Part shown: one piece after another, positions 1 through 21,315 of the stretch
Numbering within the stretch: position 1 is the stretch's first letter
Layout of the letters: the number at the start of each line of letters is the position of its first letter
Notes under the pieces: generated by a model
The model's database searches: none
Told to the model about the DNA's origin: nothing
The model's input: the letters and a program-made list of their open reading frames with translations, nothing else
NCBI RefSeq assembly: GCF_003610195.1
Contig: NZ_RAPO01000002.1
Coordinates: 806,001 to 870,000, forward strand
Reading direction: 5' to 3'
DNA from: Halopiger aswanensis
Lineage (GTDB): Archaea; Halobacteriota; Halobacteria; Halobacteriales; Natrialbaceae
DNA length: 64,000 nucleotides
Program-made: the position numbers and the translations under genes

Positions 1-3000
1 CGTGCCTGTTCCTTCGGAGAGCTTCTCGAAGATCTCCGTGAAGTGCGCGGAGATCGCCTCGTAGGCCTCCATGAACGTCTCCTTCTTGCGGGTCTCGTAC
101 TGCTCGATCCGGTCGCGGATGCCCTCGGCCTCCTCGACGAGCGTCGCCTTCGCGTCCTCGAGTTCCTCGAGATCCTCGCGGACCTCGTCGTACTCGTCGA
201 TCGCGAGCATGTTGACCGGCTCCATGGCCTCCATGTCGGCCTCGAGGAGGTCGATCATCTCGAGGACGGTGTCGTGATCGGGGACGTCCTCGGGGTCGTA
301 GTCGCCGACCTCCGACTCGAGACCCTCGATCTCCCACTCGAGGTCCTGGACGCGCTCGCGCTTGCTCTCGAGTTTGCTCTCGACGGCGTTGACGCGATCC
401 TGCTGCTGGTCGCGTTTCGTCCGCGCGTCCTCGAGGTCCTCGCGGAGCTCGTTGCGGTCTTCCTTGAGCTCGGCGAGTTCCTCCTCGAGTTCCTCGACGG
501 CTTCGCGCTTGTCCTCGAGTTCGGCTTCCTTCTCCTCGATCGTCGCCTCGCACTCCTCGATGCGGTCCTCGTGTTCGGCCTTCTTGTTCTGGGCCGCCTC
601 GATGTCGTCGTGGAGGTCTTCGATCGCGTCCTCGGCGTACTCCTTCTCGAGTTCGAGCTCGTTGAGCTTGCCGTCGATCTCGTCGATCTGGGCCTCGCGC
701 TCGTCGATCTCGCCCTCGAGTTCCTCGATCTGCTCGGTGAGTTCCGGAATCTTCGAGTCCTCGAGTTCGGCCTCGAGTTCGTCGATGTCCGACTGGATCT
801 CCTCGATCTCGGCGGTCTTCTCGTCGATCTCGCCGGCAATCTCGTTCATCCGCTCGTCGACCGACTCCCGCTCCTCGCGCAGGTCCTCGAGTTCGCTCTC
901 GAGCGTCTCGATCTCGCTCTCGATGGACTCGCGTTTCTCCTCGAGGCTCTCGATCTCGCTCTCGATCGAGCGCACCTCGTCGGCGGCGTCGGTCTTGCGG
1001 TCGCGGGCGTCGTCGAGTCGCTCCTCGACGCCCCGCAGGTCCTCGCGCAGCGACTCGCGCTCCTCCTGCAGGTCGGTGATCTGCTTGGCGACGCGCTCGA
1101 GTTGGCCCTCGCCGCCGCCGGTGAACGAATAGCGGGAACCGCTGCCGGAGCCGCCGGTCATCGCGCCGCTCTTCTCGACCAAGTCGCCGTCGAGGGTAAC
1201 CATCCGGTAGTCGCCCATGTACGAGCGGGCGGTCTCGATGTCCTCGACGACGAGCGTGTCGCCGAGCACGTAGGAGAAGACGCCGGCGTACTGGTCGTCG
1301 AAGTCGACGAGGTTGTACGCGAAGTCGACGACGCCCGGGTCGCTGGGGGCGTTGGGCAGTCGGCGCTGGCTCATGTCGGTCAGCGGCAGGAAGGTCGCAC
1401 GGCCCGCGTTGCGGGACTTGAGGTGCTCGATACACTGCTGGCCGACGACGTCGTCGTCGACGACCACGTTCGCGAGCCGGCCGCCCGCGGCGGTTTCACA
1501 GGCCACGGCGTACTCCCCCGGCACGTTCCCGAGCTGGGCGACCGCGCCGTGGACGCCGTCGATCCCCGAGTTGAGGATCGTCGTCACCGCGCGGCCGAAG
1601 GAGGAGTCGCCGCTCTCGCCGGCGTTGGCCTCGAGTTCGGCGTACTCCTGCTGTTTCGCCTGGATCTTATCGTCCAGTTCGTCGATGTCGGACTGGATGC
1701 GTCGCTTCTCGTCTTTCAGGTCGTCGACGACGCCCGCGATGTTCGCGCGGTTCTTCTTCGCCTTCTCCAGTTCGCGCTCTAAGTCGCTCTTGCGGCCCTC
1801 GAGTTCCGGAATCTCCTCGCGTCGGTCCTCGATCGTCTGCTCCTTCTCGCTGATCTCGTTCGAGCGCCGCCGGGCCTCGTCGAGCAGGCGGTCCTGCTCG
1901 CGCTGGAGGTCGTTCTTCTCGGTCTTGGCGTCCTCGAGTTCCTCCTTGCGCTCGGCGAGATCGGCCTTCAGTTCGTCGAACTCGGTGTCGACGGCTTCGA
2001 TTTCGGCCTCGAGTTGCTGCTTTTCCTGCTCGCGCTCTTGAATCTCGGTCTTGATCGAGGCCTTCTCGAGTTTGTGTTCGCGCATCTCGTCCTCGAGGTC
2101 CTCGATCTCCTCCTGCTTGCGGTCGATCTGGACGAACGCTTCCCGGCGCTTTCCTTCGGCCTCCTCGATCTGCTCCTCGCTGGCCTCGATCTTGTCCTCG
2201 AGCCGCGAGATGTCGCCCTTGATCTCCTCGATCTCGCTTTTGATGCGCAGTTGCTCGTCCTCGCCCTTGCGCTCGATCTCGGCGTTTAGGTCCTCGAGGT
2301 CCTCCTGTAAGCGGACGACCTTGCCCTGCCGTTCGTCGAGTTCGCGCTGGAGATCCTCGAGCTCCTCGCCGAGGTCGTCGACGTTCTCCTCGGCGGCGGC
2401 GAGTTCCTCGCGTTTCTCCTCGAGTTCGCTGGCCTTCTTGTAGCCCTCGTACTCCTCCTTCTCGTCGCGGAGGCGCCGATAGCGGAGGGCCGTACGGCGC
2501 TCGTCCTCGAGTTGTGCGAGCCGGTCGCGCTTCTCCTCGATGCGGAGTTCGGCCTCGTCGATCCGTTCTTGAACGGTCTCGAGTTCCTCGAAGGCGTCCT
2601 CCTTCTTGGCGTCGAACTCCGCCACGCCGGCGATCTCGTCGATGATCTCCCGCCGGGCGTGGGGCGTCATGTTGATGATCTCGGTGACGTCGCCCTGCAT
2701 GACGACGTTGTACCCCTCGGGCGTGACGCCGGCTTGGGCCAGCAGGTCCTGGATGTCCGAGAGGTTGACCGAGCGATCGTTCAAGTAGTAGTACGAGTAG
2801 TAGTTGTCCTCGGTTTCCTTGACCCGGCGGCGGATGCGGATCTCGTCGACGTCGCCGACGTCGTCGCTGCCGGCGGCGTTGACGACCTGCGAGCGGTCGA
2901 GGGTGCCGTCGCTGTTGTCGAGGACGACCTCCACGGTCGCCTCCCGGGGCCCGCTCGAGGACGAGCCGTCCTCGTGGCCGGGGTTGTAGATGAGGTCGGT

Positions 3001-3183
3001 TAGCTTCTCCGCGCGGATCCCGCGGGTGCGGGCGAGTCCGAGCGCGAAGAGAATCGAATCGATGATGTTGGACTTCCCGGAGCCGTTCGGGCCGGTGACG
3101 ACCGTGAAATCCTCGTAGAACGGGATCTTTGTCTTCCGGCCGAAGCTCTTGAAGTTGTCCAGAACGACTGCCTTGATGTGCAT
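1..3183 (-). CDS. smc: Chromosome segregation ATPase SMC (partial, C-terminus outside window)
   Basis: SMC forms ring-shaped ATPase dimers that organise and segregate the chromosome. The visible 1061 residues begin MHIKAVVLDNFKSFGRK and carry the Walker A P-loop GPNGSGKSN near residue 33. A long Glu/Lys/Arg heptad coiled coil follows, then a hinge near residues 520-680 with the GAMTGGSGSG stretch, then the returning coiled coil. The frame is still open at base 1, so the C-terminal ABC signature and Walker B (roughly 100-130 residues) lie outside. A GGAGGT ribosome-binding motif lies about 12 bases before the ATG. The coiled-coil Glu codons open long false frames on the plus strand. A small coiled-coil gene lies 109 bases upstream on the same strand. 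Family assignment is very secure. Confidence 0.97.
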   Translation of the reverse strand, partial: MHIKAVVLDNFKSFGRKTKIPFYEDFTVVTGPNGSGKSNIIDSILFALGLARTRGIRAEKLTDLIYNPGHEDGSSSSGPREATVEVVLDNSDGTLDRSQVVNAAGSDDVGDVDEIRIRRRVKETEDNYYSYYYLNDRSVNLSDIQDLLAQAGVTPEGYNVVMQGDVTEIINMTPHARREIIDEIAGVAEFDAKKEDAFEELETVQERIDEAELRIEEKRDRLAQLEDERRTALRYRRLRDEKEEYEGYKKASELEEKREELAAAEENVDDLGEELEDLQRELDERQGKVVRLQEDLEDLNAEIERKGEDEQLRIKSEIEEIKGDISRLEDKIEASEEQIEEAEGKRREAFVQIDRKQEEIEDLEDEMREHKLEKASIKTEIQEREQEKQQLEAEIEAVDTEFDELKADLAERKEELEDAKTEKNDLQREQDRLLDEARRRSNEISEKEQTIEDRREEIPELEGRKSDLERELEKAKKNRANIAGVVDDLKDEKRRIQSDIDELDDKIQAKQQEYAELEANAGESGDSSFGRAVTTILNSGIDGVHGAVAQLGNVPGEYAVACETAAGGRLANVVVDDDVVGQQCIEHLKSRNAGRATFLPLTDMSQRRLPNAPSDPGVVDFAYNLVDFDDQYAGVFSYVLGDTLVVEDIETARSYMGDYRMVTLDGDLVEKSGAMTGGSGSGSRYSFTGGGEGQLERVAKQITDLQEERESLREDLRGVEERLDDARDRKTDAADEVRSIESEIESLEEKRESIESEIETLESELEDLREERESVDERMNEIAGEIDEKTAEIEEIQSDIDELEAELEDSKIPELTEQIEELEGEIDEREAQIDEIDGKLNELELEKEYAEDAIEDLHDDIEAAQNKKAEHEDRIEECEATIEEKEAELEDKREAVEELEEELAELKEDRNELREDLEDARTKRDQQQDRVNAVESKLESKRERVQDLEWEIEGLESEVGDYDPEDVPDHDTVLEMIDLLEADMEAMEPVNMLAIDEYDEVREDLEELEDAKATLVEEAEGIRDRIEQYETRKKETFMEAYEAISAHFTEIFEKLSEGTGT

Positions 3184-3292
3184 TCCCTTCTCGAGACCTC
3201 CGTTCCGCGATGGTCAGCGCCGACGGCGAGAGACGGAGAGAGTCGGGGTCGCACGGACCCCGATTCGCCTGCCGTCGCTTCCCAGTGTGCAG

Positions 3293-3619
3293 TTACGCGA
3301 TAATGATGTCGTCGGTACCTGAGTCTTCCGCTTCGTCGCCGGACAGGTCCTCGTCGGCGTCCGTTTCGGCGTCGACGTTGGCGGCGTCGGCGGCCTCGGC
3401 AACTTCGTCCGGTGCCGCTTCCGTCGTCGTTGCGGTATCGTCCGTCTTGGCCTCGTCGCTCCGTCGCTCGGGGACGCGCGTCGGCGTTTCGGCATCGAGC
3501 TCCGCCTCGAGGACGCGGATGCGCTCTTTCGCTTCGATGAGCTCGTCCGTGAGTCCCTCTACCGTCGACTCGAGTTCCGCGACCGTCGATTCGAGCTGCT
3601 CGACGCGGTTGTTCGACAT
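3293..3619 (-). CDS. Small acidic coiled-coil protein upstream of smc (DUF7518-like)
   Basis: The 108-residue protein has an N-terminal heptad coiled coil (about residues 1-45, MSNNRVEQLESTVAELES) and a very acidic disordered tail ending in DDIIIA. No enzymatic motif is visible. I recall this architecture as a conserved haloarchaeal family commonly placed just before smc, named DUF7518 from memory. The start at 3619 is preferred over an in-frame ATG at 3646 because a TATA-like CGTTTATGG is centred about 28 bases before 3619, which fits a leaderless mRNA and would leave the upstream ATG untranscribed. It is probably co-transcribed with smc, and a role with SMC is inferred from position only. 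Confidence 0.75.
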   Translation of the reverse strand: MSNNRVEQLESTVAELESTVEGLTDELIEAKERIRVLEAELDAETPTRVPERRSDEAKTDDTATTTEAAPDEVAEAADAANVDAETDADEDLSGDEAEDSGTDDIIIA

Positions 3620-3814
3620 ATCCGCTAGGGCGACACCCTGAACCATAAACGTACGTCAGACAATGATACGTTCCCTGTCACGTGAACGCGACTCAATCGA
3701 GGGGTCGTTCCGAGTCACAGCGCGGATAGCTCGACGGACGGTGGGATTCGTCATTCCGTCGGGTTCGACCCCGCGTTTGATGGTTGGGTGTGATAAACAC
3801 ACAGTATTAGAACC
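3619..3814. promoter_or_regulatory. Divergent promoter region with inverted repeat GTGTG-N5-CACAC
   Basis: The region separates the smc-side gene from the acyl-CoA synthetase. On the minus side a TATA-like box covers 3643-3651. On the plus side a perfect 5-5-5 inverted repeat GTGTG-ATAAA-CACAC covers 3788-3802, only 12 bases before the ATG at 3815. Its spacer GATAAA is the best A/T-rich element near that start. A repressor site here could block transcription start; this is inferred from position. Confidence 0.45.
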
Positions 3815-5863
3815 ATGCCCGAGAACACCGACACCGATGCCGGAACTGACGGCGACAGCGGTCTCGAGGCCGTCGACGAGATCGTCCACGAGCCCGATCC
3901 CGCGTTCGTCGAGTCGACCAACGTCTACGCGTTCATGCGGGAGTACGGGATCGACGACTACGACGAACTGATCGAGCGAACGACGACTGACCTCGAGGGG
4001 GTCGAGGAATCGGGGCTCGAGTGGTTCTGGGACGAGGTGGTCGACTATCTCGGAATCGAGTTCGACGAGGACTACGACAGGGTACGGGACGACAGCGACG
4101 GCCCGCAGTTCTCCGACTGGTACGTCGGCGGCGAGCTCAACGTCGCCCACAACGCCGTCGACCGACACGCCGCCGTCGACGAGGAGCGGCGCAACAAAGT
4201 CGCGACCATCTGGGAGGGCGAGGACGGCGAGGTCCGCGAGGTAACCTACCACGAACTCCACCGGCAGGCGAATCAGGTCGCGAACGCCCTCGAGGAGCGC
4301 GGGATCGACACGGGCGACACCGTCGGACTCTACATGCCGATGGTACCGGAGGTCGTCTCGATTCTCTACGGCTGTCTCAAGGTCGGCGCGATCGCGGTGC
4401 CGATCTTCTCCGGCTTCGGCGTGGACGCGGTCGCGACCCGCCTCGAGGACGCCGAGTGCTCGGTGCTGTTCACGGGCGACGGGTTCTACCGACGCGGGGA
4501 TCCCGTCTTCCTCAAGTCGACGGCCGACAGGGCGATCGAACAGGCGGGCCGCGTCGAGCGCGCGATCGTCTTCGATCGATTGGGTTCCAGCGACCGGGCG
4601 AACGAACACGAAATTCCCTGGACCGACGACCGCGACGAGTGGTGGGGCGCGGCCGTCGACGCGCAAGACGACGCCTACGAGACGAAATCGCTGCCCTCGA
4701 GCCACGAGTCGATGCTCCTCTACTCGTCGGGGACGACCGGGAAGCCGAAGGGGATCGTCCAGACTCACGCGGGCGTGCAGGTTCAGTGTGCGAAGGAGGT
4801 CTACTTCGGGATGGACCTCAAGCCCGCGGATCGGTTCTTCTGGGTCTCGGACATCGGCTGGATGATGGGGCCGTGGACGCTGATCGGAACCCACACCTTC
4901 GGCGGCACGGTCTTCATGTACGAGGGCGCGCCCGACTACCCCGATCCCGACCGGTTCTGGTCGATGATCGACCGGCACAACCTGACGCAGTTCGGCATCT
5001 CTCCCACGGCGATCCGGGCGCTCCGCAAGCACGGGGACCAGTGGCTCGAGGACCACGACCTCTCCTCCCTTCGCGTACTGGGTTCGACGGGCGAGCCGTG
5101 GGATCCCGAATCCTGGCGCTGGTTCTACGAGAACGTGGGGAACGGCGAGTGCCCGATCATCAACATCTCCGGCGGCACGGAGATCTGTGGCTGTTTTCTG
5201 ATGCCGATGCCGATCCAGTCGCTCAAACCCTGCACGCTCGGCGGGCCCGGGCTCGGAATGGACATCGATATCGTCGACGAGAACGGTGACTCCGTGGCCG
5301 ACGAGCACGAGCGCGGCTACCTCGTCGCCCGCAGTTCCTGCCCCTCGATGACGAAGTCCCTGTGGTCCGGAGACGACCGCTATCTCGAGGAGTACTGGTC
5401 GACCTGGCCGGACCTGTGGGACCACGGCGATTGGGCCCAGCAGGACGAAGACGGGTTCTGGTTCCTCCACGGCCGGGCCGACGACGCCCTGAACGTCGCC
5501 GGGCGCAAGGTAGGGCCCGCCGAAGTCGAAGGCGCCTTGATCGACCACGACGCGGTCAACCAGGCCGCAGCGATCGGCGCACCGGACGAGACGACCGGAA
5601 CGGCGGTCGTTACCTACGTCGTTCTCGAGGACGGCTACGGGGAAAGCGACGAGTTACGCGAGGAACTGCGCGAGCAGGTCGGTGCCGAGTTGGGCAAGCC
5701 GTTCCGCCCGCGCGAGGTGCTGTTCGTCGACGAATTCCCCAAAACCCAGTCGGGTAAAATCATCCGCCGAGCCATCGAAGCGACCTACGCGGGCGACGAT
5801 CTGGGCGACCTGAGCAGCATCGAAAATCCGGAAGCGCTCGACGAACTCGAGGCGGCCCGATGA
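3815..5863 (+). CDS. AMP-forming acyl-CoA synthetase (acetyl-CoA synthetase-like)
   Basis: The 682-residue enzyme is an ANL-superfamily ligase that activates a short carboxylic acid with ATP and CoA through an acyl-adenylate. It has the ACS-type N-terminal domain (VGGELNVAHNAVDRH), the P-loop YSSGTTGKPKG near residue 305, the adenylate-binding motif ISGGTEICG near 451, the hinge HGRADDALNVAGRKVGPAEVE near 551, and the catalytic Lys in KTQSGKIIRR near 646. It differs from the canonical acetyl-CoA synthetase at 51113-53104, which has WWQTETGG, so the substrate may be propionate or another short acid. It stands alone and converges with the LUD gene 76 bases away. Proximity to the lactate genes suggests organic-acid use, but this is not proof of substrate. 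Confidence 0.88.
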   Translation: MPENTDTDAGTDGDSGLEAVDEIVHEPDPAFVESTNVYAFMREYGIDDYDELIERTTTDLEGVEESGLEWFWDEVVDYLGIEFDEDYDRVRDDSDGPQFSDWYVGGELNVAHNAVDRHAAVDEERRNKVATIWEGEDGEVREVTYHELHRQANQVANALEERGIDTGDTVGLYMPMVPEVVSILYGCLKVGAIAVPIFSGFGVDAVATRLEDAECSVLFTGDGFYRRGDPVFLKSTADRAIEQAGRVERAIVFDRLGSSDRANEHEIPWTDDRDEWWGAAVDAQDDAYETKSLPSSHESMLLYSSGTTGKPKGIVQTHAGVQVQCAKEVYFGMDLKPADRFFWVSDIGWMMGPWTLIGTHTFGGTVFMYEGAPDYPDPDRFWSMIDRHNLTQFGISPTAIRALRKHGDQWLEDHDLSSLRVLGSTGEPWDPESWRWFYENVGNGECPIINISGGTEICGCFLMPMPIQSLKPCTLGGPGLGMDIDIVDENGDSVADEHERGYLVARSSCPSMTKSLWSGDDRYLEEYWSTWPDLWDHGDWAQQDEDGFWFLHGRADDALNVAGRKVGPAEVEGALIDHDAVNQAAAIGAPDETTGTAVVTYVVLEDGYGESDELREELREQVGAELGKPFRPREVLFVDEFPKTQSGKIIRRAIEATYAGDDLGDLSSIENPEALDELEAAR

Positions 5864-17771: not shown

Positions 17772-18557
17772 CTAGCGGCGACGAGACAGCCAGACGCCGC
17801 CGCCGATCGCCACCAGCGAGCCGACGACGCCGGGGCCGGGCAGGGAGTCGCCCGTTCCCTCGGCAGCCGTCCCGCCGTCGTCCGCCGGCTCGATCGCGGC
17901 CTCGTACCCCTCGAAGGAGGTGTTCGCGTCCCAGACCGCACGCTCGGCGGTCCGGTCGGCCGGTGTCGGATCGGACGCGGCGAGTTCGTACCCGTCCGGT
18001 AGCTCGAGGACGACCGGCCGATCGGCCGTGAATCCGCTGGCGAACGGCTCGGTCACGCGGAGGGTCCCGTCCGCCGTCGCCGCGAGGCCGCGCCAGTCGG
18101 CAGCCACGGAGACGACACCGCGGTCGCCCCCATCGACCGTCTCGAACGACGTGCGGACGTTTTCGACGGTCATCTCGCGCCCGGTTTCGGAAGCTGCCTC
18201 GGCGGCGATCGTCCGAAACCGCTGCTCGGTCCGCGCCTCGAGGCGGTCGCGCTTCGTTTCGTTCTCGCGCAGCGAGTCGAAGGCCGCTCGCTCGGCTTCG
18301 TCCGTCAGGTCGAACGCGACGCGGACGGTCACCGTCGCGTCGCCGTCGTCCTCGAGGGCGACGACGAATGCCTCGTCGGAGGCCGCCCGGTCGTCGCCCT
18401 GCTCGGCGCTTTGACCGGTACCGACGCCGGGGCTTGCGGCGGCGCCCCCGGTCGCGGCGACGGCGACGAGCGCGAGGGCGAGGAGCCACGCGGCGTACGT
18501 TCGCAGACGTCCCCGACCGCGATCAGTTCGTGGATTCGTCCGTTGTATCGGTCTCAT
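17772..18557 (-). CDS. Secreted protein with PGF-CTERM-like C-terminal sorting signal (DUF7345-like)
   Basis: The 261-residue protein has an N-terminal hydrophobic signal after a basic segment (RTYAAWLLALALVAVAA near 21-37) and an exported domain at about 55-215. It ends in a tripartite tail: PGPGV, a hydrophobic stretch and SRRR. This resembles the PGF-CTERM signal that archaeosortase A cleaves to lipid-anchor surface proteins, and artA is at 35272. The exported domain is paralogous to that of the protein at 20140: both have a ~20-residue Arg/Glu helix followed by a T(or S)GR.MT motif. The ATG at 18557 lies inside the end of the upstream gene, a 35-base overlap suggesting coupled translation. 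An in-frame upstream extension is only the shadow of the acidic tail there. Confidence 0.72.
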   Translation of the reverse strand: MRPIQRTNPRTDRGRGRLRTYAAWLLALALVAVAATGGAAASPGVGTGQSAEQGDDRAASDEAFVVALEDDGDATVTVRVAFDLTDEAERAAFDSLRENETKRDRLEARTEQRFRTIAAEAASETGREMTVENVRTSFETVDGGDRGVVSVAADWRGLAATADGTLRVTEPFASGFTADRPVVLELPDGYELAASDPTPADRTAERAVWDANTSFEGYEAAIEPADDGGTAAEGTGDSLPGPGVVGSLVAIGGGVWLSRRR

Positions 18558-19956
18558 TGTCGGTCTCGTCGTCTTCGTCGTCCTCGTCCGCGTCGTCTTC
18601 GTCGTCCGAATCGTCCCGTTCGTCACCATCCTCGCGGTCCGCGCCGTCCTCGGCACGGCGGTCGTCGTCCGCGAGATCGAGTTCGAGTTCGGCCTCGAGG
18701 TCGCCGTGGGTCACGTCGATCTCGAGTTCGTCCGCGCCGTCGGGGACCGCGAACGAGACGGTGCCGTCGTCGCCGGTGGTGCCGACGGACTCGTCGTTCG
18801 CGACGACGTCGGCTCCCGACACCGCACTGCCGTTGTGCGTCACCGTGACAGTCACGGTGCCGTTCTCGACGGTAGCGTCGGTCTCGAGCGCCCCGTCGTC
18901 GTCGCGGTCGGTCTCTCGTTCGTCGTCGTTCTCGCGCTCGCTTTCGTTTTCGCGTTCGTCTTCGTCCGCATCATCGTCATCCCGTTCGTCGATCTCCGGC
19001 GCTTCGGCGTCGTCAGCGTCGCCGGCGTCGGGCGCTTCGATCTCCTCCTCGAGTTCGAAGACGGTGCCCGTTTCGCCGTCGACGCTAATCTCGGCCTCGC
19101 CGGTCGCATTGCCGGTCAGGCTGAACTCGAACTCGTAGACGCCGTCGTCGGCGTCGCTCTCGCTTTCGTCGAGCGTCCAGTTGCCGTCGACGGCCGAGAG
19201 CGCGTCAGTTGCAGCCTCGCGTGCCTCGGACTGGGAGATGTCGAGGGAGCCGTCGCCGTCGCGCGGTCGCTCGAACTCGCGGCTCCGCTCGCCGTCCTCG
19301 GTTTCGGCTTCGATCGAGACGCCACCGCCGGTCTCGATCTCGATTTCGGCTTCGCCCTGCGCCTCGCCGGTGAACTGCCGGCGGAGCGCGTCGGTGCCCG
19401 TACTGGTCAGCTGGGCGACCGCGTCGCGCTGCTCGCGCAGTTCCGACGCGGACACGTTGGCCGCGTCGAGCGCGTCGGGCGAGACGTCGTCGGCTCGCTC
19501 GAGGAGCCGGTCGTAACTCGAGACGACGCCCTGTGCGCGGGCGTTCACCGACGCGAGCCGCTGGGCGTAGGTCGATTCGTCGATGTCGCCGGCCTCGTAG
19601 GCCGCGGTCGCCTCGTCGTACTCAGCCTGCAGCGTCGCGGATCGGTTCTCGAGGACCGCAGCACGGTCGGCGATCGCGGCCGCGCGGGCCTCGTCGTCGC
19701 TGTCGGTGCGTTCCAGCCGTTCCTCGAACGCCGCGTTTTCGAACTCCGTGCGCACCTCGTTGCTCGTCGCGGTGACGAGCGTCGAGAGCTGTGCGCCGGT
19801 CGTCACGGTGACGCTGTCGTTCGTCGTCGATTCGTTTTGGGTCTGGGTCGCCACACTGGCGCCGGTACCGGCACCGGCGCCGGCGACGACCGCCGGGCCG
19901 ATGGCGCTCGTACAGAGCAGTACAGCCAGGGAGGCGATCAGTAGTCGTCGGATCAT
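18523..19956 (-). CDS. Secreted acidic protein with PepSY-like and Ig-like domains (DUF7096-like)
   Basis: The 477-residue protein starts with a signal peptide or membrane anchor (MIRRLLIASLAVLLCTSAIG). Next comes a helical region at about 50-190, then a PepSY-like domain near 235-300 (SEAREAATDALSAVDGNWTL), an acidic linker, and a beta-rich carboxypeptidase-regulatory-like domain near 355-425 (GSAVSGADVVANDESVG). The extreme Asp/Glu tail has no sorting signal. I recall a haloarchaeal family DUF7096 with this layout. The start at 19956 is set by the signal peptide and a TATA-like GTTTATGG about 31 bases upstream. It overlaps the following PGF-CTERM-like gene by 35 bases. Function is unknown; extracellular sensing or adhesion is speculation. 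Confidence 0.72.
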   Translation of the reverse strand: MIRRLLIASLAVLLCTSAIGPAVVAGAGAGTGASVATQTQNESTTNDSVTVTTGAQLSTLVTATSNEVRTEFENAAFEERLERTDSDDEARAAAIADRAAVLENRSATLQAEYDEATAAYEAGDIDESTYAQRLASVNARAQGVVSSYDRLLERADDVSPDALDAANVSASELREQRDAVAQLTSTGTDALRRQFTGEAQGEAEIEIETGGGVSIEAETEDGERSREFERPRDGDGSLDISQSEAREAATDALSAVDGNWTLDESESDADDGVYEFEFSLTGNATGEAEISVDGETGTVFELEEEIEAPDAGDADDAEAPEIDERDDDDADEDERENESERENDDERETDRDDDGALETDATVENGTVTVTVTHNGSAVSGADVVANDESVGTTGDDGTVSFAVPDGADELEIDVTHGDLEAELELDLADDDRRAEDGADREDGDERDDSDDEDDADEDDEDDETDNETDTTDESTN

Positions 19957-20139
19957 CGTCGCTTGCGCATCGACGGGACGTCCCCATAAACGGGGTCGAT
20001 CATCGGGCCGATTTGCGGCGATTTGCACCGTTTGCGCGGATGCACGGGAGCCCGTTTGCACCGATTTGCATCGATTTTCTGTCTATTTTCTGCCCAGACA
20101 GTACGCTTATACGATAGCTCTCACAACAGCGGGGCACCC
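19957..20139. promoter_or_regulatory. Divergent promoter with 10-bp-phased direct repeats
   Basis: Between the two divergent envelope genes lie repeats of the type CGATTTGCAC starting at 20009, 20019, 20029, 20053, 20062 and 20072, with a weaker match near 20038. Spacings are about 10 bases, one helical turn. Flanking them are the minus TATA box (CCATAAAC at 19984-19991) and the plus TATA box (TTATAC at 20107-20112). The array lies exactly between the two core promoters and is likely a multi-subunit regulator site. Confidence 0.6.
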
Positions 20140-21315
20140 GTGAGAACCGTATTCGACTGCATCGTAACTGCACTATTTGTTGCTGTTCTTATACTATCGG
20201 CAGCGGTCGTTCCCGTCGGCGCGTCGACGGTGCCCGCCCAATCGGGTAGCGCGAGCGACGACACGTCCCTCATCGCAACGGCGGACCTCCCCGAAGCCGA
20301 CGCGACGGTCACGCGGATCGAACTCGAGGCGAACGGGACCGCCCGCTGGTCGATCTCGGTTCGGACGCGCCTCACGAACGAGTCCGACGTCGAGGACTAT
20401 CGGGCCTTTCAGGAGCAGTTTCGCGCCGACCGCGAGACCTACCGCGACCGGTTCGAGCAGCGGATGACCGGCGTCGTCTCGGGCGCGGCCGACGCGACCG
20501 GTCGGAACATGACCGCGTCGGCGTTTCGCGCGGAGACGTCGATCCAGGAACTGCCGCGGCGGTGGGGCGTCGTCACCTACTCGGTCACCTGGACGAACTT
20601 CGCCACGGTTGCGGACGACGCGGTCGTCGTCGGCGACGTGTTCGAGGGCGGCCTCTACCTCGGCGACGGCGACTACCTCGAGGTCGTGCCGCCCGCGGAG
20701 TACGAACCGACGGAGACGTCGCCGCCGCCGACCGAAACCGAAGGGCGGACGGTCGTCTGGACCGGGCCGGAGGAGTTCGCCGACCAGCAGCCGACGGTAC
20801 GGTTCGAACCCGCGGAATCGGACGCGACGGCCGCCGACGAGACGACCGCCTCGAGCGGGTCGTTCTCCCCGCCGCTCGTCGGCGTCGCGTCGATCGCCGC
20901 CCTCGCGCTCGTCCTCGGCGGTATCGCCGTCGCCGTCGTCTCGGACCGCAAACCCGTCGCGCGGATCCGCGCGAGACTCTCAGGTGCGTTCTCCTCCGCG
21001 AGCGGGCCGGCCGACTCGGCGGACGGAGAAGCGACCGGGGCGGCAACCGGCGTCGCCGACGACGGTGCAAGTTCGGCCGACGGAGCGGACTCCGCCTCCC
21101 CGCCGGATCCCGAACTCCTCACCGACGAGGACCGCGTCCGGCGCCTGCTCGAGCGAAACGGCGGTCGAATACGCCAGGCCGAGATCGCCGACGAACTCGA
21201 GTGGTCGGCCTCGAAGACCTCGCGGGTCGTCTCGGCGATGGCCGACGAGGGAACTGTCGAGAAGCTCCGGATCGGCCGCGAGAACGTGATCGATCTGCTC
21301 GAGGACTCCGAGTAG
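20140..21315 (+). CDS. Membrane-anchored protein with exported DUF7345-like domain and cytoplasmic winged helix
   Basis: The 391-residue protein looks like a one-component transmembrane regulator. Residues 6-28 are a signal or membrane segment (IVTALFVAVLILSAAVV). An exported domain at about 45-230 is paralogous to the secreted protein at 17772. Transmembrane residues 247-270 follow, then an Ala/Asp-rich linker. Residues 326-388 form a winged HTH (RIRQAEIADELEWSASKTSR). I recall the HTH as DUF7343-like. The GTG at 20140 is chosen because TTATAC is centred 30 bases upstream. Divergent from the secreted gene pair, it could sense an envelope signal and bind the phased repeats beside it; that is inference. 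Confidence 0.78.
   Translation: MRTVFDCIVTALFVAVLILSAAVVPVGASTVPAQSGSASDDTSLIATADLPEADATVTRIELEANGTARWSISVRTRLTNESDVEDYRAFQEQFRADRETYRDRFEQRMTGVVSGAADATGRNMTASAFRAETSIQELPRRWGVVTYSVTWTNFATVADDAVVVGDVFEGGLYLGDGDYLEVVPPAEYEPTETSPPPTETEGRTVVWTGPEEFADQQPTVRFEPAESDATAADETTASSGSFSPPLVGVASIAALALVLGGIAVAVVSDRKPVARIRARLSGAFSSASGPADSADGEATGAATGVADDGASSADGADSASPPDPELLTDEDRVRRLLERNGGRIRQAEIADELEWSASKTSRVVSAMADEGTVEKLRIGRENVIDLLEDSE

Follow-up and report, generated by a model that had tools for sequence, protein, structure and literature searches.

A helically phased direct-repeat array marks a divergent haloarchaeal gene pair encoding a predicted membrane-anchored winged-helix protein and a secreted partner

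Regulators of the ToxR/CadC type are membrane-anchored proteins with a sensor outside the membrane and an N-terminal winged helix, and ToxR is associated with heptad repeats. The protein considered here, encoded by a gene that we call A, shares with them a predicted membrane-anchored winged helix and a putative outside sensor, but has its winged helix at the C-terminus (residues 326-386), after a signal-peptide-like start, and so falls outside the ToxR-like type. In transmembrane transcription regulators (TTRs) one polypeptide both spans the membrane and binds DNA through a dedicated domain (PMC10269533), as is predicted for A. ArnR and ArnR1 of Sulfolobus are likewise archaeal membrane-bound HTH proteins, reported to be activators with sites upstream of BRE/TATA and with two boxes that are needed together (PMC6396743); the HTH of ArnR is described as N-terminal (PMC13286277), whilst the winged helix of A is C-terminal. 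ArnR boxes are given as inverted repeats, TCGAC-N5-GTCGA (PMC6396743), whereas the array described below consists of direct repeats every 10 bp, all on one strand, and therefore resembles neither an ArnR box nor a semi-palindromic operator. The sites of archaeal regulators have been described as almost invariably semi-palindromic (PMC6085418 citing Peeters 2013).

The locus lies in a window (the whole stretch of DNA that was analysed, 64,000 nucleotides from Halopiger aswanensis; G000:C2:806001-870000 in its own genome) and comprises the following features, given in window positions.
17772..18539 (start codon provisional), minus strand: gene C, downstream of B, with DUF7345 and a hydrophobic helix at the C-terminus but no winged helix.
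18523..19956, minus strand: gene B, secreted, with a signal peptide, DUF7096-like, PepSY-like and Fn3_arc-like regions and a hyperacidic C-terminal tail; it is the main target proposed for the regulator.
19984..19990, minus strand: TATA-like box of gene B, CCATAAA (minus-strand reading TTTATGG), ATAAA being invariant in the three genera aligned.
20009..20039, plus strand: left array, CGATTTGCGG / CGATTTGCAC / CGTTTGCGCG, which abuts the core promoter of gene B and has counterparts at the same place in two other genera.
20053..20092, plus strand: right array, CGTTTGCAC / CGATTTGCAT / CGATTTTCTG and the weak CTATTTTCTG, upstream of the gene A TATA and conserved in close orthologs.
20106..20112, plus strand: TATA-like box of gene A, CTTATAC, with CTTATA invariant across three genera.
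20140..21315, plus strand: gene A, with a signal-peptide-like N-terminus, DUF7345 (residues 59-188), a membrane helix at about 247-268 and a DUF7343 winged helix at 326-386 (Pfam and model).
21115..21297, plus strand: winged-helix domain of gene A, with the predicted recognition helix around WSASKTSRVV.

The intergenic gap between B and A is 183 bp long, and a short word occurs in it seven times. A first-pass annotation had listed six units, at 20009, 20019, 20029, 20053, 20062 and 20072, lying between TATA boxes at 19984 and 20107; all six positions were verified in the sequence and both boxes were found (CCATAAA at 19984; CTTATA at 20106/20107), together with a seventh, weaker unit that it had missed, at 20083-20092. 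With TTKC (K = G or T) as the anchor, at 20013, 20023, 20032, 20056, 20066, 20076 and 20087, the seven units follow one another in steps of 10, 9, 24, 10, 10 and 11. The further claim that they share one helical face holds because their phases at 10.5 bp/turn are near zero (0, -0.05, -0.19, +0.10, +0.05, 0 and +0.05 turn), which puts all seven within 0.2 turn. At a shift of 10, the segment 20005-20079 is identical to itself at 35 of 65 positions, which is the top score among 63,926 75-bp windows, with the runner-up locus at 31, and shifts adjoining 10 give nothing at the array. The words CGTTTGC or CGATTTGC occur 10 times on the plus strand of the 64-kb window, five of these within the array, where the frequency in the remaining sequence predicts 0.006 per 73 bp, and once on the minus strand of the window. 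Searching the window for Rfam families and tRNAs gave no match. Positions 1-4000 of the window have a strong AT skew (-0.316) relative to the remainder.

Gene A carries DUF7345 (104.9 bits; cut-off 27.5) and DUF7343 (101.7 bits; cut-off 27.6) in one protein, both above the curated cut-off, and so belongs to the DUF7345-DUF7343 family; proteins of this type had a match in 60 of the 61 haloarchaeal genomes sampled. The C-terminal winged helix that had been proposed for the 20140 protein is present according to both Pfam, with matches to DUF7343, IclR and MarR-type domains, and an AlphaFold model, in which residues 330-386 reach a pLDDT near 90. Apart from the winged helix the full-length model is of low confidence (mean pLDDT 50), and it has a helix at 250-263 that sits in a hydrophobic stretch with basic residues after it. 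The predicted topology places DUF7345 outside, followed by one membrane helix and the DUF7343 winged helix inside, and a DNA-binding domain joined to a predicted membrane segment in a single polypeptide is what defines a TTR. Structure searching with the model gave generic winged-helix matches only (AspA, CadC/ArsR, MarR), none with an E-value <=0.001, and no mention of DUF7345, DUF7343 or DUF7096 was found in the literature searched. The A orthologs of G284 and G374 were considered as natural losses of the winged helix and rejected, the domain being present in both. In gene B all three Pfam matches (DUF7096, PepSY, Fn3_arc) fall under the curated cut-off, and its orthologs in part exceed it for DUF7096, Fn3_arc or PepSY. 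A strong 9-bp periodicity at 18566-18640 of the window is coding for the acidic Glu/Asp tail of B, the length of which differs widely among orthologs. A tblastn search provisionally placed gene C after B in 14 of the 19 loci of the first round, and in distant loci the start codons of B and C are provisional. Gene C is possibly a co-receptor or decoy of A.

The haloarchaeal relatives returned by the protein search include Natrinema, and the scan of named genomes returned four loci only. Among 125 genomes of the family, A orthologs (>300 bits; next match 234 bits) occur in 16, and B (E<=1e-20) occurs in exactly those 16 and in no others. Extending the search to 392 genomes of the order yielded further A orthologs, of which 48 regions and two more were examined. 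These 50 orthologs span eight families (f1, f3, f4, f5, f7, f8, f10 and f12), and B lies divergently beside A in 49 of them, in G068 as fragments, with G327 as the exception. The other genome of the host's genus that was compared (G001) lacks both B and any A match above 300 bits, and the distribution of the module is therefore patchy. Alignment of the intergenic region in related genomes, a check that the first-pass annotation had put forward, found that species keeping the A-B genes keep the arrays, and with two other genera both arrays stand at matching places. This is refined by the wider set, in which an array lies beside B nearly everywhere and one beside the A promoter is seen in a close clade; the array looks to track gene B, with autoregulation of gene A secondary. 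In G327 and G247, whose A-like genes lack B, no array was detected upstream of A. G068 has the module divided over two loci: the one at C1:268960 retains A with only fragments of B, and the one at C1:4.67 Mb retains B and C with only a fragment of A.
G068, C1:263000-274000 (L122): first split locus, with phased units.
G068, C1:4667000-4678500 (L210): second split locus, with phased units.
At the second locus the array by B is intact, with three units exactly 10 bp apart (TGATTTGCGG ACGTTTGCAC TCATTTGCAC), and the array can be said to accompany B because this locus keeps it beside a degenerate A.

The periodicity recurs in other species. Among the 19 intergenic regions that were taken first, pairs of TTGC exactly 10 bp apart numbered 30 against 0.07 expected, and the spacings of TTGC peaked at 10, 20, 32, 42 and 52 bp, the further peaks corresponding to 2, 3, 4 and 5 turns, so that unit spacing in related genomes equals whole turns, as in a helically phased operator. 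Removal of G327, which has no B, from the 48 group-I loci left 47 A orthologs for the periodicity test, and upstream of B in these loci the best self-match had a mean z of 3.76 at shift 10 and 2.21 at shift 20, with the remaining shifts from 7 to 21 between -0.74 and 0.52. Compared with dinucleotide shuffles, the 10-bp periodicity was significant at p<=0.05 in 41 of the 47 loci and at p<=0.01 in 37, the six loci above 0.05 being G068, G063, G140, G038, G376 and G388; the p values of the loci are not independent (shared ancestry), and with the first-listed locus per genus 21 of 25 genera were still at p<=0.05. Controls reached that level in 1 of 40 promoters of paralogous A' genes and 3 of 147 random windows, and in two of six gatB upstream regions (mean z 1.22), a small set. 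The unit word varies whilst the 10-bp step is constant, GTTTGCA being the usual form, with GTTTCAC in G382 and GTTCCCG in G398. Two loci, L181 (G273) and L187 (G343), have seven gapless consecutive 10-bp units of another word, GTTCTGG/GATTCTA. A unit model was trained on the loci that it lists, with held-out fits computed separately, and the held-out loci G284 and G374 match it at p<1/200. What computation shows is that the arrays exist, how they are phased and conserved, and that they are coupled to the A-B module.

Because this arrangement recurs beside the same genes across many genera, the array very probably serves as the binding strip for the membrane-anchored regulator encoded alongside it. 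Judging from sequence, protomers of the gene A protein probably line up head-to-tail on the units, one to each helical turn, and control B(-C). In most loci, measured from B's TATA-like box, array starts cluster at approximately 14, 24, 44 and 65 nt, and in 45 of the 47 loci (G038 and G338 were dropped, their array not lying downstream of the called TATA) the start offsets gave a Rayleigh R of 0.84 at 10.5 bp, 0.72 at 10 and 0.67 at 11, 10.5 bp being the best among the periods tried with relatedness among loci left in; TATA calls in this and the unit-model analysis are heuristic. By these offsets the first unit starts just beyond the BRE, a position at which binding has been reported for the archaeal activators EarA and Ptr2 (PMC5512572). 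The gene A protein would occupy one DNA face directly upstream of the BRE/TATA of B, and array-bound A would most likely help TFB/TBP onto the B promoter, by which the envelope operon B(-C) would be controlled. At the second array, found in the host and its closest relatives, A may act likewise on its own promoter (autoregulation), and the outside DUF7345 domains of A and C together with secreted B may form the sensing/feedback side. We infer the head-to-tail mode, activation over repression and the sensing loop. If A is a head-to-tail binder, activation seems likelier than repression, about twice as likely, as judged from position. The opposite outcome, in which a filament of the same binder on the same operator would keep B (and A) repressed until released by a signal from the envelope, is possible but somewhat doubtful: head-to-tail winged-helix proteins can act negatively, RdfS repressing its own promoter (PMC11963761), but the array starts after the BRE and leaves the TATA and start site uncovered, in the position of the activators EarA and Ptr2 (PMC5512572).

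Whether A itself is the binder can be approached from its paralogs. A' proteins are approximately 33-41% identical to A, and B' often lies directly downstream in tandem (group II), with C' also present in two inspected A'-B' cases; DUF7345 genes resembling C follow B' in the modules L201 and L202. From 32 hits, two duplicates and seven others (group-I loci and L018) were excluded, and the 23 remaining group-II loci combined gave a mean z of 2.28 at shift 10, the next being shift 9 at 0.86. Group II is weaker, with 14 of 23 loci at p<=0.05 and no array in L035 or L036. Six further non-training group-II loci each fitted the model at p<1/200, two of the six also passing the plain shift test. The units upstream of B' are TAATCCGTCT-TAATCGGGCT-TAATCGTCGG in L033 and CGTTGAACGG-CGTTAACCGT-CGTTGAATCC in L085, and the A'-B' module of the host genome (L002) has GCTGTTTGCC GCCGATTTCG ACGCGTTGCC GACGGTTTCG, with a plain shift test p of 0.27. 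By the shift test there are no arrays upstream of the A' genes themselves; the arrays precede B' instead. The unit word is near CGWTTAAC in group II (on the strand opposite B') and CGWTTGCA in group I, and the recognition helix changes in parallel, reading WTDAKTSKV in group II and WSASKTSRV in group I. Within WSxSKTSRV, units comprised 74 TTGY, 15 TTTC and 21 other where x is A (110 units, 25 loci), and 19 TTGY, 19 TTTC and 27 other where x is K (65 units, 14 loci), an association that is suggestive and confounded by phylogeny, as the lysine loci are largely one clade.

The word is also largely specific to the module in A-bearing genomes. In the host genome TTTGCNNCGNTTTGC occurs exactly three times, twice within the array, and allowing <=1 mismatch it has 17 matches compared with 28 for a reversed control, with no enrichment elsewhere that would indicate a wider regulon in that genome. 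The lone exact match off the locus (G000:C1:657329-657343, L038) has two units upstream of another gene and may be chance. In the 16 A-bearing genomes, TTTGCANCGNTTTGCA with <=1 mismatch has 23 matches, 18 of them at the module (in 11 of the 16 genomes), and there are 33 in the other 109 genomes; the pattern TTGCN6TTGCN6TTGC has 11 matches, 10 at modules, with 15 in the other 109. The first-pass annotation had suggested searching for the unit elsewhere, and neither whole-genome pattern scans nor control promoters had it at a similar density. Neither of the two observations that the annotation had named as refuting was made, and its reading, cooperative binding by an oligomeric regulator that is plausibly the winged helix of the 20140 protein, is supported. 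Near confinement of the word to the module in A-bearing genomes makes the regulator look dedicated to the locus.

We infer A as the binder from the co-occurrence of A and B, the absence of arrays without B, the A'-B' arrays and the recognition-helix trend; the parallel change of word and helix and the coupling of the array to the A-B pair point to A. Haloarchaea have many winged-helix regulators, and the case for binding by A is one of sequence, so that a different, soluble regulator could bind a real operator and have A and B merely in its regulon. This is unlikely, as 10 of 11 strict matches in A-bearing genomes are at modules, the array is absent without B, A and B co-occur perfectly, and the A'-B' modules have a related but different word, a history that any independent regulator would need to have in common.

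Helically phased T-runs are able to bend DNA and to position histone-like proteins, and the periodic TT steps might be a DNA-bending or chromatin-positioning signal of this kind with no protein-specific operator. Such a signal is a very improbable account of the arrays, since the units exceed TT, with C/G before and GC plus a purine after, the T-runs are only 2-4 long, TTGC is strand-asymmetric (80 on the A strand vs 10 on the opposite strand in the 19 regions), and control promoters lack the units. Chance or a compositional artefact of a GC-rich genome, in which 9- and 12-bp coding periodicities are common, has a negligible probability given the 30 TTGC pairs against 0.07, the 41 of 47 significant loci and the best score of 63,926 windows. 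Spacing counts, shuffles and controls led us to reject, or to rank low, chance, coding periodicity and DNA curvature.

The host locus is one example of a regulatory architecture that extends across the order, in which a putative regulator family unnamed in the searched literature is tied to direct-repeat operators in two paralogous kinds of module, giving a likely DNA target for DUF proteins of most haloarchaeal genomes sampled. More tentatively, and as a possibility short of an even chance, binding by A would extend to a widespread haloarchaeal signalling family, in which DUF7345-DUF7343 proteins would form filaments on TATA-phased 10-bp operators, unit number would tune the response, the word would co-evolve with the helix, and C and B would close an envelope-sensing loop. 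Across the loci, array length and word vary naturally, which could help in asking how a membrane-held protein gets to DNA and reads it.

Set against known systems, the array is placed similarly to the sites of EarA of Methanococcus, an activator with multiple short sites that directly precede the BRE (PMC5512572), but EarA has 6-bp sites and belongs to another family, and the passages describing it mention neither membrane binding nor helical spacing (PMC5512572). BldC and RdfS/Xis are head-to-tail winged helices, with one DNA turn between BldC protomers (PMC11963761), and the DNA spacing of the array fits, by analogy, a BldC-type head-to-tail filament. These proteins are, however, soluble, bacterial and without a membrane anchor, RdfS being described as having no consensus motif (PMC11963761), and gene A stands outside the BldC/Xis (MerR-like) sequence family, with no MerR or Xis Pfam match. 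The passages of the TTR survey (PMC10269533) contain no DUF7345/DUF7343 group, and to the TTR plan A adds partner genes and an iterated operator. Each ingredient thus has precedents, whilst their combination appears undescribed in the literature searched, and the signalling family, if true, would break the rule of semi-palindromic archaeal operators.
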